From Enhydrobacter aerosaccus (lineage in GTDB: Bacteria; Pseudomonadota; Alphaproteobacteria; Reyranellales; Reyranellaceae), in NCBI RefSeq assembly GCF_900167455.1, contig NZ_FUWJ01000001.1, forward strand, positions 868,001-932,000: a DNA stretch of 64,000 bases, given 5' to 3'. Below are positions 2,967-29,306 of the stretch, piece after piece (position 1 is the first letter of the stretch; every line of letters starts with the position of its first letter). The notes beneath the pieces are model-generated. The model was not told the DNA's origin. It was given only the letters and a program-made list of their open reading frames with translations, and made no database searches. A program made the translations under genes and the position numbers.

Positions 2967-4469
2967 CTAGCCCGGCGGCACCGTCTCCAGCGATGCGGAG
3001 ATGCGTCCCGCGCGCCGGGCCGCCGCGAAGCGGTCATGGTCGCGTTCGGTCTGCTCCAGGTAGGCCAGGGCGAACCGGCCGATCGCTTCGTCGAGCGTGT
3101 CGCCCTTGCCGACATAGCCTGCCATCATCGCCGCATCGCCCGACTTGGCATGCGCCAGGGCCAGGGCCCAGCCACACAGCCGGCAATAGCTGGCGAAGCC
3201 GTCGAGCGTTTCCGTCACGCCCTCGCCGAAGCGGGCACCGCCCTTCATGTCGGCGAGCTGGCGCACGTAGAACTGGCGGCCGTAGGTGGAGTCGCCCCAG
3301 CCGAGGAAGATGTCGGGTGCGCCCTGCGTCAGCCGCTGGCCGACGACGACGCGCTGGCCCTGATGCGTATAGGGCAGGCTGATCGGCGCATACGGCGCCA
3401 GTACCGAGCGCTGCGCCTCCTTGATCTGCAGGAACAGCGGATCGTCGTCATCCAGCCCTTGCAGGAAAGCAACCCAGCAGCTCGTGCCGACGCTACCCAC
3501 GCCCACCACCTTGCGCGCCACATCGACGAGGCGATAGCGCGACATCAGCCGCTTGCGATCGTCGGGCAGGGAATGGAAGTAGCTCCTGAGCACGTCGTCG
3601 ATGACCTCGGCCATCGGCACGCCGTCCTCGCGATGCGTCTCGCGCACCAGCACTGGCGCGATCTCGATCAGGCGATGTTGGCCGGCGACATCCTCGGTCA
3701 GCTTGTCGAGCGAGCGGATATGGCCCTTGGCCCGGGCCTTGTCGAAGATCGCCTCGATCTGCGTCCGCAGTCGCGGGGAGGCGGCATCGAGGATCGTGCG
3801 ATCGTCGATCTCGTCGTACCAGACCTCGAGGAACGGCATCTCCGCGTAGCCGCGCAGCCGCTCGCGCCAGGACGCGACGGCGGCGCGCGCCGCTTCCTCG
3901 GCGCCGACGCGGTCGGCGCCCATGTCGCTCGCGGCGACGGCGGCGCTGGCGGCCAGTCGCTTTAGGTCCCACTCCCACGGTCCGGGATGGACCTCGTCGA
4001 AATCGTTGATGGCGAAGATCAGCTTGCGCTCGGCCGAGGCGAAGACGCCGAAATTGGCGACGTGCATGTCGCCGCAGGCGACCACGTTCAGCCCGGTCGC
4101 CGGTGTGGTGGCGAGATCGGCCGCCATCACAGCGGCCGCGCCGCGCAGGAAGGTGAAGGGCGAGGCCAGCATGCGTGCGTTACGCAGCGGCACCAGCTTC
4201 TGCACCCGGGTCGCGTTCTGCGCCATCAGGATGTCGACCGGATCGGCGCGATCGGCTCTGGGCGTCCAGGCGGCGTGGCTGGTGCGCGGCACCGTCTTGC
4301 GCAGCTGCCGCCCCATCTCCATCCGCTCCGCCCGCGAGGGCCGGGACCCGGTAAAGTTCTGCAGCGACCCGAGCTGGTCGCGATGCGAGAGGAAGCCGAA
4401 GAAATCCTGATCGATGTTGTTCTTGGGAGCCGAAGACATTGTTCGATCTACGGCGTTCCGGTCACGCAT
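2967..4469 (-). CDS. DUF2252 family protein
   Basis: A 500-residue DUF2252 protein at the usual family length. DUF2252 proteins have a protein-kinase/APH-like fold and no settled activity. Recognisable elements are RTSHAAWTP near residue 65, VACGDMHVANFGVF near 155, and FAINDFDEVHPGPWEWDLKR near 178, which resembles the catalytic loop and metal motif of APH kinases. The ATG at 4469 overlaps the last codons of the upstream dehydrogenase gene by eight bases, implying translational coupling. An alternative start is Met11 at 4439, but neither start has a strong ribosome site. Confidence 0.85.
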   Translation of the reverse strand: MRDRNAVDRTMSSAPKNNIDQDFFGFLSHRDQLGSLQNFTGSRPSRAERMEMGRQLRKTVPRTSHAAWTPRADRADPVDILMAQNATRVQKLVPLRNARMLASPFTFLRGAAAVMAADLATTPATGLNVVACGDMHVANFGVFASAERKLIFAINDFDEVHPGPWEWDLKRLAASAAVAASDMGADRVGAEEAARAAVASWRERLRGYAEMPFLEVWYDEIDDRTILDAASPRLRTQIEAIFDKARAKGHIRSLDKLTEDVAGQHRLIEIAPVLVRETHREDGVPMAEVIDDVLRSYFHSLPDDRKRLMSRYRLVDVARKVVGVGSVGTSCWVAFLQGLDDDDPLFLQIKEAQRSVLAPYAPISLPYTHQGQRVVVGQRLTQGAPDIFLGWGDSTYGRQFYVRQLADMKGGARFGEGVTETLDGFASYCRLCGWALALAHAKSGDAAMMAGYVGKGDTLDEAIGRFALAYLEQTERDHDRFAAARRAGRISASLETVPPG

Positions 4470-25620: not shown

Positions 25621-25728
25621 CGCCTCGCGACCAACAACGCACATTGACGGCAGCCTGCCTCCCGCTTATAGGGGCGGCGGGCCACGCTCCCCCACCGGAG
25701 CGCAGCTCTTCTGTAAGGGAGAGGTTTG

Positions 25729-26895
25729 ATGAAGCCGACGACTCGTCCGGCGCGTCCCGATTTTTCTTCGGGACCTTGCGCCAAGCGTCCGGGATGGACT
25801 CCGGAAGCCCTCAAAGATGCCGCCGTGGGGCGGTCCCATCGTTCGAAGCTCGGCAAGAAGAAGATTGCCGAAGCGCTCGATCGCACGCGCGCCATCCTCG
25901 GCATTCCCGCCGACTACAAGGTCGGCATCGTGCCCGCCTCGGATACCGGCGCCGTCGAGATGGCGCTGTGGTCGCTGCTGGGCGGGCGCCCGGTCGATAT
26001 GCTGGCGTGGGAAAGCTTCGGCGAGGGTTGGGTCACCGACGTCGTCAAGCAGCTCAAGCTCAAGGACGCGCGCATCCTCAAGGCCGGCTACGGCCAGATC
26101 GCCGATCTCAAGGCGGTCGACTGGACACATGACGTCGTCTTCACCTGGAACGGCACCACGTCCGGCGTGAAGGTGCCGAACGGCGACTGGATCGCCGACG
26201 ATCGCGACGGCCTTGCCATCTGCGACGCCACCTCCGCCGTCTTTGCCATGGACCTGCCGTGGCAGAAGCTCGATGTCGTGACGTGGTCGTGGCAGAAGGT
26301 CATGGGCGGCGAGGGCGCGCACGGCATGCTGGTGCTGAGCCCGCGCGCGGTGAAGCGCCTGGAAAGCTATTCGCCGCCGTGGCCGCTGCCGAAGATCTTC
26401 CGCCTGACTTCGGGCGGCAAGTTCTCCGAGGCGATCTTCAAGGGCGACACGATCAACACGCCGTCGCTGCTGTGCGTCGAGGACGCGATCGACGGCCTGC
26501 GCTGGGGCGAGAGCGTCGGCGGCCTCAAGGGCCTGATGGCGCGCTCCAACGCCAATCTCGGCGTGCTGGAGAAGTTCGCCGCCGAACGCACCTGGATCGG
26601 CTTCCTCGCCGCCGACAAGGCGATCCGCTCCAACACCTCGGTGTGCCTCAACATCACCGCGCCCTGGTTCACGGCGCTGCCGGCCGACAAGCAGGCCGCG
26701 GCGGCCAAGAAGATGGCCGACCTGCTCGAGACCGAGAAAGCCGGGTACGACCTCGGTTCGTACCGCGATGCTCCTCCTGGCCTGCGCATCTGGTGCGGCG
26801 CCACGGTGGAGAAGAGCGATCTCGAGGCGCTGCTGCCTTGGCTCGACTGGGCCTACGCCGAGATCGAACGCGAGTTCGGCGCCAAGGCGGCTTAA
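25729..26895 (+). CDS. serC: Phosphoserine aminotransferase
   Basis: A 388-residue PLP enzyme converting 3-phosphohydroxypyruvate and glutamate to phosphoserine. It belongs to the alphaproteobacterial/archaeal-type SerC subgroup: it opens [18 protein letters not shown] and has [14 protein letters not shown], the PLP-anchoring [16 protein letters not shown] with its Lys, and [12 protein letters not shown]. The ATG at 25729 follows AAGGGAGAGG. It is immediately followed by serA, so the first two serine biosynthesis steps are in one operon. A large palindrome lies between them. Confidence 0.93.
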
Positions 26896-26905
26896 AGGAT
26901 TCAAG

Positions 26906-26962
26906 GGAGCGCGCCACTCCAGTGGCGCTCGGAACATGAGCGCCACTGGAGTGGCGCGCTCC
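26906..26962. repeat. 57-bp perfect nested palindrome between serC and serA
   Basis: Two 25-base arms (26906-26930 and 26938-26962) are exact reverse complements around the loop GGAACAT. Within each arm, an eight-base stem (GCGCCACT and AGTGGCGC) surrounds two bases, so each arm could also fold alone. In RNA this gives either one very long stem or two smaller hairpins. It starts 11 bases after the serC stop and ends 19 bases before the serA start. It may act as an attenuator, mRNA-stability element or dispersed palindromic repeat. Confidence 0.8.
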
Positions 26963-26981
26963 GATGAAGGAGGCATTTCAA

Positions 26982-28565
26982 ATGGCGAAGCCCAAAGTTC
27001 TCATCTCCGATGAGCTCAGCCCGCGTTCGATCGAGATCTTCTCCGAGCGCGGCTGCGACGTCGATTTCAAGCCGGGCCTGAAGCCGGCCGAACTGCGCGC
27101 GATCATCGGCCAGTATGAAGGCCTCGCCATCCGCTCGGCGACCAAGGTCACGGCGGAAGTGCTGGCGGAAGCGAAGAAGCTCAAGGTGGTGGGCCGCGCC
27201 GGCATCGGCGTCGACAACGTCGACATCAAGGCCGCGACCGCCCGTGGCGTCGTCGTGATGAACACGCCGTTCGGCAACGCCATCACCACGGCCGAGCATG
27301 CGATCGCGCTGATGTTCGCCGTCGCGCGCCAGATCCCCGAAGCCAATGCCAGCACGCAGGCCGGCAAGTGGGAGAAGAACCGCTTCATGGGCTCGGAGCT
27401 CAGCTTCAAGACGCTGGGCCTGATCGGCTGCGGCAATATCGGCTCGATCGTCGCCGACCGCGCGATCGGCCTGAAGATGCGCGTCCTGGCCTACGATCCG
27501 TTCCTGTCGGATCAGCGTGCTGCCGAACTCGGCGTCGAGAAAGCCACGCTCGACCAGGTGCTGGAGCGCGCCGACTTCATCACGGTCCACACGCCGCTCA
27601 CCGAGCAGACCAAGAACATCCTGAGCCGAGCCAACCTGATGAAGACCAAGAAGGGCGTGCGCATCGTCAATTGTGCCCGCGGCGGCCTGGTCGACGAGCT
27701 CGCCGTGCGCGATCTGCTGGTGTCCGGTCACATCGCCGGCGCTGGCTTCGACGTCTTCACCGTCGAACCGGCCAAGGAGAACGTGCTGTTCGGCACGCCC
27801 AACCTCGTCTGCACGCCGCATCTCGGCGCGTCGACGGTCGAGGCGCAGGAGAACGTGGCGCTACAGGTCGCCGAGCAGATGTCCGACTATCTGCTGACCG
27901 GTGCGGTCGTGAACTCACTCAACATGCCGAACGTGTCGGCCGAGGACGCGCCCAAGCTGGCGCCGTATCTCGACCTCGCCGAGAAGCTCGGCTCGTTTGC
28001 CGGCCAGCTCACCGACACCGATATCAAGGCGGTGTCGATCGAGTACGAGGGCCAGGTGGCGGCGCTCAACATCAAGCCGCTGAGCCAGGTCGCGCTGATG
28101 GGCGTGTTGCGGCCGCAGCTCGATACGGTGAACATGGTGAACGCGCCGGCCATCGCCCGCGAACGCGGCGTCGATGTCGCGGAAGTGAAGCACGAGCGTG
28201 ACAGCGACTACCACTCGCTGATCCGCCTGTCGGTGACGACGGAGAAGTACACGCGCTCGGTGACCGGCACGCTGTTCGGCGGCAAGCATCCGCGCATCGT
28301 CGAGATCAAGGGCATCGAGATCGAGGCCGAGTTCGGCCAGCACATGCTCTACATAACCAATGACGATAAGCCCGGCTTCATCGGCCGGCTGGGGTCGCTT
28401 CTGGGCGAGCACAAGGTCAATATCGCGACCTTCCATCTCGGCCGCGACACGCCGGGCGGCTCGGCGATCGCCCTGGTGCAGGTCGACCAGCCGATCTCGC
28501 CCGAGCTGCTGACCAAGATCGCGGCGCTCGAAAGCGTGGTGCAGGCCAAGGTGCTGACCTTCTGA
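26982..28565 (+). CDS. serA: D-3-phosphoglycerate dehydrogenase
   Basis: A 527-residue long-form SerA that oxidises 3-phosphoglycerate to 3-phosphohydroxypyruvate with NAD, the first step of serine synthesis. The catalytic core has GRAGIGVDNVDIKAATARG, the Rossmann motif GLIGCGNIGSIVADRA, NCARGGLVDELAV with the substrate Arg, and CTPHLGASTVEAQENVA with the catalytic His. An intervening domain and a C-terminal ACT domain (YITNDDKPGFIGRLGSLL) follow, the latter usually mediating serine feedback. GGAGG precedes the ATG at 26982. It is downstream of serC. Confidence 0.95.
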   Translation: MAKPKVLISDELSPRSIEIFSERGCDVDFKPGLKPAELRAIIGQYEGLAIRSATKVTAEVLAEAKKLKVVGRAGIGVDNVDIKAATARGVVVMNTPFGNAITTAEHAIALMFAVARQIPEANASTQAGKWEKNRFMGSELSFKTLGLIGCGNIGSIVADRAIGLKMRVLAYDPFLSDQRAAELGVEKATLDQVLERADFITVHTPLTEQTKNILSRANLMKTKKGVRIVNCARGGLVDELAVRDLLVSGHIAGAGFDVFTVEPAKENVLFGTPNLVCTPHLGASTVEAQENVALQVAEQMSDYLLTGAVVNSLNMPNVSAEDAPKLAPYLDLAEKLGSFAGQLTDTDIKAVSIEYEGQVAALNIKPLSQVALMGVLRPQLDTVNMVNAPAIARERGVDVAEVKHERDSDYHSLIRLSVTTEKYTRSVTGTLFGGKHPRIVEIKGIEIEAEFGQHMLYITNDDKPGFIGRLGSLLGEHKVNIATFHLGRDTPGGSAIALVQVDQPISPELLTKIAALESVVQAKVLTF

Positions 28566-28696: not shown

Positions 28697-29245
28697 GTGC
28701 CTCGAGTCACAGAAATCACCGATGACGGCGGCGATCCGACGCTGAAGTCGATCTTCGACAAGCAGCGCGAGATTTTTGGCGACCTGCTCAATCCAACGAA
28801 GGTGATGGCCCATTGCCCGCCGATCCTGCGGGCGGCCCAGCTCCTGGGACAGTCGATCGAACAGTCGGGACAGTTGCCGAAGGCATTATTGCCGCTGATC
28901 TACCTGCGCGTCGCGTCGATCAACGGCTGTCCATTTTGAATTGATATCAATTCCGTCCGTGTGACGGAAACCGAAGGCGGCCTGGACAAGGTCGCGGAAG
29001 TGCTGAGCTGGCGCGACAGCAAGCTGTTCAGCGAGTCCGAACGCGTGGCGCTCGAATATGCCGAGCGCATCACCTATAGCGACCAGCAGGTCGACGATGC
29101 CTTCTTCGCCAAGGTGAAGGAACACTTCACGGAACCGCAGATCGTCGAACTCACGGCGGCCGTGGCACTGGAGAACTTCCGCAGCAAGTTCAATCCAGCC
29201 CTGGGGATCGATGCTCAGGGCTTTTGCCTGGTGCCGAAGCGCTGA
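28697..29245 (+). CDS. Predicted selenoprotein: AhpD-like/CMD protein with CxxU motif (in-frame TGA at 28937-28939)
   Basis: One reading frame runs from GTG 28697 (AAGGAG eight bases upstream) to the stop at 29243-29245, interrupted only by TGA at 28937. Read through, it gives a 182-residue carboxymuconolactone decarboxylase/AhpD-like protein. Family-typical parts lie on both sides: AQLLGQSIEQSGQLPKAL and RVASINGCPF before the TGA, and SESERVALEYAERITYSDQQ plus VALENFRSKFNPALG after it. In relatives this site reads CxxC; here it is Cys78-Pro-Phe-TGA, so the TGA replaces the second redox Cys. A SECIS-like hairpin follows at 28951-28969. Function is probably a thiol/selenol peroxidase or disulfide reductase. 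The alternative is a nonsense mutation. Sec machinery is not in the window. Confidence 0.7.
28951..28969 (+). promoter_or_regulatory. Candidate bacterial SECIS hairpin
   Basis: TTCCGTC (28951-28957), loop CGTGT (28958-28962), GACGGAA (28963-28969) form a perfect seven-base-pair stem inside the coding sequence. The stem begins 11 nt after the TGA and the apical loop begins 18 nt after it. Bacterial SECIS elements recognised by SelB lie directly downstream of the UGA, with a small apical loop having a G in the first two positions; here the second loop base is G, followed by U. A further small palindrome, ATTGATATCAAT, sits between the TGA and this stem. Confidence 0.6.
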
Positions 29246-29255
29246 CACGCAGGAC

Positions 29256-29288
29256 GGGGAGAGCGCCACGCGCGTTGGCGCTCTCCCC
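29256..29288. terminator. Strong hairpin between convergent genes
   Basis: GGGGAGAGCGCCA (29256-29268), loop CGCGCGT, TGGCGCTCTCCCC (29276-29288): a perfect 13-base-pair stem in the 61-base space between the AhpD-like gene and acdS, which converge. It should terminate or insulate transcription from both sides, although neither side has a long T-run. Confidence 0.6.
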
Positions 29289-29306
29289 GCGAGCGATTTA
29301 CAGCGA

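Follow-up and report, generated by a model that had tools for sequence, protein, structure and literature searches.

In the genus Reyranella, palindromes have repeatedly landed in the gap between serC and serA and replaced one another there, and the palindrome that fills this gap in the host genome is almost certainly a RAYT-associated dispersed REP doublet (REPIN/BIME). The element is of an ordinary kind with an unusual tag, and its address, the serC-serA gap, is the finding. The explanation that we favor, and consider likely as a whole, is that a REPIN-type element, composed of two inverted GGAG-tagged REP-like repeats and dispersed over the host genome, which is probably of that genus, would have arrived directly after the serC stop codon at a recurrently used site, where it would form a boundary in the RNA; many copies of the family sit by gene 3' ends.

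In an inverted-repeat scan of the window (the whole 64-kb stretch of DNA analyzed), the serC-serA palindrome was the longest near-perfect inverted repeat. A sequence check paired the arms of this 57-bp element at 25 of 25 positions around a 7-nt loop (GGAACAT), and the arms, when extended, reach 31 nt at 94%. Each arm contains GCGCCACT-CC-AGTGGCGC, which gives a hairpin of 8 bp whose nominal loop is 2 nt. The palindrome begins 10 nt past the serC stop codon and ends 19 nt short of the serA ATG. RNA spanning 26880-26990 folds at -75.1 kcal/mol, compared with -37.2 kcal/mol for shuffled sequences (z = -11.2), and none of 200 shuffles was equal, indicating that the fold is not due to chance. Sequence and fold together confirm the preliminary description of a perfect nested palindrome between the two serine genes, with exact 25-base arms that each contain an 8-bp hairpin of their own. 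When the whole window was searched against Rfam at the gathering score, the serC leader was the sole match; the palindrome had none, and a known Rfam RNA was therefore rejected for it.

Table 1. Positions of the serC-serA palindrome and of neighboring features in the window.
Feature	Position	Strand	Evidence or remarks
Leader RNA of serC (Rfam RF00517), 5' of the gene	25675..25727	+	49.5 bits (gathering 35)
serC, phosphoserine transaminase	25729..26895	+	NCBIfam TIGR01365, 669.9 bits; start picked from relatives; stop codon 26893..26895
Palindrome, 57 bp	26906..26962		Arms 26906..26930 and 26938..26962
REP unit 1	26906..26930	+	GGAG tag 26906..26909 and imperfect hairpin; core 26911..26928
Loop between the two REP units, 7 nt	26931..26937	.	
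REP unit 2	26938..26962	-	Exact inverted copy, tags outward; core 26940..26957
AAGGAGG, likely serA ribosome-binding site	26967..26973	+	Sequence; outside the palindrome
serA, phosphoglycerate dehydrogenase	26982..28565	+	NCBIfam TIGR01327, 684.5 bits; ATG at 26982, start conserved in relatives as MAKPK
CMD/AhpD-like gene, downstream of serA	28697..29245	+	In-frame TGA 28937..28939 (INGCPF-TGA-IDINSV)
Perfect 14-bp inverted repeat	29255..29289		Between two convergent genes

Two features downstream of serA deserve mention in their own right. The in-frame TGA of the CMD/AhpD-like gene is TGA at the same codon in 41 of 41 relatives matched, the read-through protein matches Pfam CMD, and the host genome encodes a SelB scoring over the cut-off. 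This neighbor of the serine genes is probably a CxxU selenoprotein and not a pseudogene; the fold of the 56 nt around its TGA was no stronger than shuffles. The 14-bp inverted repeat beyond it, at which the terminator scan did not report a terminator-like site, is possibly a bidirectional 3' end structure.

The preliminary description had listed attenuation of serA among several possible roles of the palindrome, and had noted that many copies elsewhere in the genome would speak against a regulator specific to serA. Such copies exist: allowing up to two mismatches, the core GCGCCACT-NN-AGTGGCGC occurs 127 times in the host genome (G000; 6.77 Mb in 30 contigs) compared with 6 times for a reversed control. 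In a sample of 142 alphaproteobacterial genomes searched at up to one mismatch, the two of this genus stand out, with 79 copies in G000 and 60 in G015; each of the remaining 140 has 0-2. At least one match is present in 64 of 65 genus genomes, with a range of 0 to 182 per genome. An attenuator or intrinsic terminator, in which a switch between long and short stems would control serA transcription, could draw on the two alternative folds that are possible and on the great stability of the stem, but a terminator scan of the serC-serA gap found no U-run after the hairpin and no terminator-like site, the sequence is that of a generic repeat, and other species have unrelated sequences or none in the gap. 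We regard such a mechanism as very improbable; attenuation by termination is unsupported, and the absence of a terminator-like site together with the dispersed copies led us to reject a serA-specific attenuator.

Seventy-nine of the 127 repeat sites were read, in fetched stretches, and 76 of them could be oriented. The oriented unit is made up of a tag and a hairpin, with 2 nt in excess on the side of the tag. The tag is GGAG at 53 sites, GGGG at 16 and another tetranucleotide at 7; GTAG or GTGG, the GT[AG]G tetranucleotide by which REPs and REPINs are recognized at the hairpin foot, was found at 0 of the 76. A paired stem change, GCGCAACT..AGTTGCGC, leaves the hairpin of the repeat intact. 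Among 37 neighbor pairs, 22 are outward (+-) like the serC-serA palindrome, 6 inward, 6 direct and 3 unoriented, and the spacing between neighboring cores is 26-47 nt in 23 of the 37. Of the 23 clusters in loci of at least 2.9 kb with callable surroundings, 22 are extragenic (12 in tandem gaps, 10 in convergent gaps and none in divergent gaps), and 8 of the 23 are single, unpaired repeats. The family therefore bears the marks of a REP doublet, namely an oriented tag, outward pairs, short spacing and extragenic sites; of the features used to define REPs and REPINs it also has a high copy number (~100 or more per genome), along with the extragenic location and the inverted doublets. A mobile or dispersed palindrome, which had been raised as one option for the element, is supported by these counts.

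The repeat family is associated with RAYT-type (HUH tyrosine) transposases of the same genome. G000 contains two Y1_Tnp genes, both of which pass NCBIfam NF047646 (REP_Tyr_transpos) with 83.7 and 85.7 bits at a cut-off of 80 and carry MPNHVH (the HUH motif), and the one that was searched is related to the E. coli TnpA-REP structure 4er8 (E = 2e-8). The C13 RAYT gene (3623-4174 of L157) has repeats upstream at 3357, 3423, 3480, 3546 and 3603 and downstream at 4185 and 4242, the nearest two being inverted, and the C16 RAYT gene has family A repeats on both sides. The genome thus has a cognate RAYT gene with inverted repeats on its two sides, the inversion having been read for the L157 gene. When 31 RAYT loci (29 from relatives and the 2 of the host) were compared with 202 control windows of 3.2 kb, family A was found at 10 RAYT loci and 19 control windows, and a second, GGAC-tagged family at 7 RAYT loci, often at both ends, and 9 control windows; neither family was found at 14 of the 31. 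Loci at which GGAC-tagged repeats flank the RAYT gene on both sides are L130, L133, L139, L141, L150 and L152. From this association we infer that a RAYT would have moved the palindrome, and RAYT-driven spread appears to be the best-supported origin. Y1_Tnp matches were limited to 31 of 61 genomes of the genus, whereas the core is present in 64 of 65, which counts against the favored explanation.

The gap could be taken from 60 of the 65 genus genomes, the five others (G016, G045, G056, G067 and G068) being without a usable serA locus; in five of the 60 (G001, G009, G066, G071 and G204) serC lies off the contig and the gap is partly visible. Gap types were assigned by eye, and one gap with a run of N was typed from its readable part. 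A palindrome fills the gap in 40 of the 60 genomes, and the occupants belong to at least six unrelated families: A (the serC-serA palindrome of G000 and close variants) in 21, B (GGACCGC...) in 7, C (CTCACCCTGAGGAG... and kin) in 6, F in 4, and D and E in one each. Genome-wide counts, made for families A, B and C, show these three to be dispersed. The remaining 20 gaps are either empty (14, with 14-28 nt, start codon counted) or overlapping (6, with serA starting inside serC). The overlapping arrangement, opposite in architecture to a filled gap, was seen at L211, L214, L221, L253, L258 and L260. Separately, the gap palindrome of three genomes (L224, L227 and L231) shows a nested insertion, with a further hairpin lodged within one of its REP units.

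Empty alleles coexist with filled ones in the same clades, and such alleles are the one trace of possible mobility of the element. On a tree inferred by a quick search from the two genes themselves, serC and serA, the gap states require at least 24 changes. The strongly supported branches alone force 9 changes in family A, 7 in B, 5 in C and 4 in F, although recombination at the locus could inflate the number of changes. A first attempt found few conserved genes around serA, indicating that synteny is low. One account of the recurrence is that the surroundings of the serC stop codon and the GGAG ribosome site are a preferred insertion target. Every insertion does fall after the stop codon of serC and before the start of serA, and many empty alleles read stop-GGAG, but the preference would have to be common to at least six families that are unrelated, only A and B are tied here to RAYT genes, and GGAG ribosome sites are everywhere; a hot spot of this kind is unlikely.

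Exact arms of this length had been taken to imply recent origin or active maintenance. In G000, G202 and G015 both arms have no mismatches to the consensus (2 x 23 nt), and among these three species the two genes differ at 23-31% of their fourfold-degenerate sites. Since the arms are exact across this divergence, they look old and either maintained or corrected, and a recent origin is not supported; a recent single insertion was rejected on the same grounds. Their preservation is attributable to one of three processes: selection, correction within the palindrome or re-insertion. In the sister species G003 the arms have decayed, with 6 and 2 mismatches, and in G002, of the same clade, the gap is empty.

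Palindromes very probably occupy the serC-serA gap more often than they do other gaps in Reyranella. Exact inverted repeats of at least 14 bp within 200 nt after the stop codon were counted, with control genes taken from a simple purpose-made codon-score caller and not a standard one. Such repeats followed serC in 17 of 40 cases, compared with 8 of 323 for the other tandem genes in these regions (Fisher p = 9e-13, relatedness ignored); they were found at 14 of 200 convergent ends and in 0 of 473 coding interiors. A first count using start-based gaps had given 18/38 versus 8/392. Among orthologous tandem pairs present in at least 8 genomes, serC-serA scored 18/40 and any other pair at most 2/16. 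The exact-repeat measure misses decayed and composite palindromes, and a fold z-score was used as well: values of -4 or below were obtained for 23 of 40 serC ends versus 25 of 323 controls.

The main rival explanation, to which we give only slightly less than an even chance, is neutral tolerance combined with supply, in which a promoterless-looking gap between two genes with their own ribosome sites accepts any repeat and is filled more frequently where the genome is rich in repeats. As this account predicts, family A copies are more numerous in genomes with a filled gap than in those with an empty one (Mann-Whitney p = 0.005, relatedness ignored). It is also consistent with the copies genome-wide that adjoin gene 3' ends (0 of 22 in divergent gaps), and with the empty alleles within clades. 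That 20 of 60 species lack a palindrome, 6 of them having overlapping genes, counts against the favored explanation, as do the higher copy number in genomes with a filled gap, the noncanonical tag and the weaker excess outside the genus. Against neutral tolerance and supply, other tandem gaps are far emptier, orthologous short gaps included, and the arms are unchanged over the fourfold divergence of three species, the decay in G003 notwithstanding.

Other alphaproteobacteria show a weaker excess of exact repeats after serC (10/52 versus 13/245, p = 0.002, relatedness ignored), and a fold z of -4 or below at 28/52 serC ends versus 40/245 controls. Counted on both strands, the Bradyrhizobium/Afipia-type gap repeat was present in all 8 genomes checked, at 5 to 58 copies, and the Sphingomonas-type gap repeat in all 8 checked for it, at 2 to 37 copies; in some of these 16 genomes, however, the genome's own gap is occupied by another repeat. 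The occupants thus look like repeats of each lineage's own. We tentatively propose that the alphaproteobacterial serC-serA junction is a 'hairpin slot', at which selection would repeatedly capture the lineage's own long dispersed palindrome, to set the SerC:SerA ratio or to protect serC mRNA. A role in that ratio, which the preliminary description had suggested, may still be envisaged from the repeated filling of the gap by unrelated palindromes.

By analogy, the most likely effect of the palindrome at serC-serA is at the level of RNA. A hairpin in the serC-serA mRNA would be a boundary that keeps exonucleases away from the 3' end of serC, and would separate translation of serC from that of serA while leaving the serA ribosome site free; that such a boundary function is under selection is conceivable, at rather less than even odds. 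A role at the DNA level instead, as a cruciform or as a site for gyrase or a nucleoid protein, is improbable, although perfect arms can form cruciforms and REP/BIME elements elsewhere are described as protein binding sites in the available part of PMC2817692.

Were the hairpin slot real, mobile repeats of unrelated families would have converged on a single regulatory task at a single site. Whether REP-type repeats are merely selfish DNA or have been put to use by operons is an open question, for which a single gap, filled by at least six unrelated families across this genus, with sister species in which it is empty, is a natural replicate set for tests of co-option. The data also add, for one genus of alphaproteobacteria, RAYT-linked repeat families tagged GGAG and GGAC. 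Among the papers listed from the open-access collection searched, no title or abstract opening dealt with serC-serA palindromes or with REPs in Reyranella.

Comparison with known systems is based on the portions of each source that were available. Like the REPINs and REP doublets of Pseudomonas (Bertels and Rainey 2011, PMC3116915), the Reyranella elements are inverted pairs of short palindromes that form hairpins, are extragenic and are present in many copies in genomes with RAYT genes; they differ in their tag (GGAG/GGGG and not GT[AG]G), their shorter spacing and their alphaproteobacterial host. A RAYT gene flanked on each side by inverted family repeats is shared with the REPs of Nunvar et al. 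(2010, PMC2817692), who, as far as the consulted text goes, found RAYT-REP pairs by their own criteria only in gammaproteobacteria and with GT[AG]G heads. HUH Y1 transposases beside high-copy, non-GTAG structured repeats also characterize the tnpA-REP classes with atypical structures (PMC6006769); GGAG has 0 occurrences in that text, according to which alphaproteobacterial genomes have no or few tnpAY1 homologues each. CGTC-tagged REPs (Di Nocera et al. 2013, PMC3733652) are likewise alphaproteobacterial palindromic repeats, often head-to-head dimers, and CGTCAT... palindromes resembling them lie in some other alphaproteobacterial serC-serA gaps, but the Reyranella element lacks the CGTC tag and its family adjoins transposase genes, which, in the portion available, CGTC repeats do not. 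Finally, in differentially decaying E. coli operons, a stable RNA structure at the gene boundary protects the upstream gene, according to the available part of PMC5927463, and the serC-serA hairpin may, by analogy, act in the same mode.
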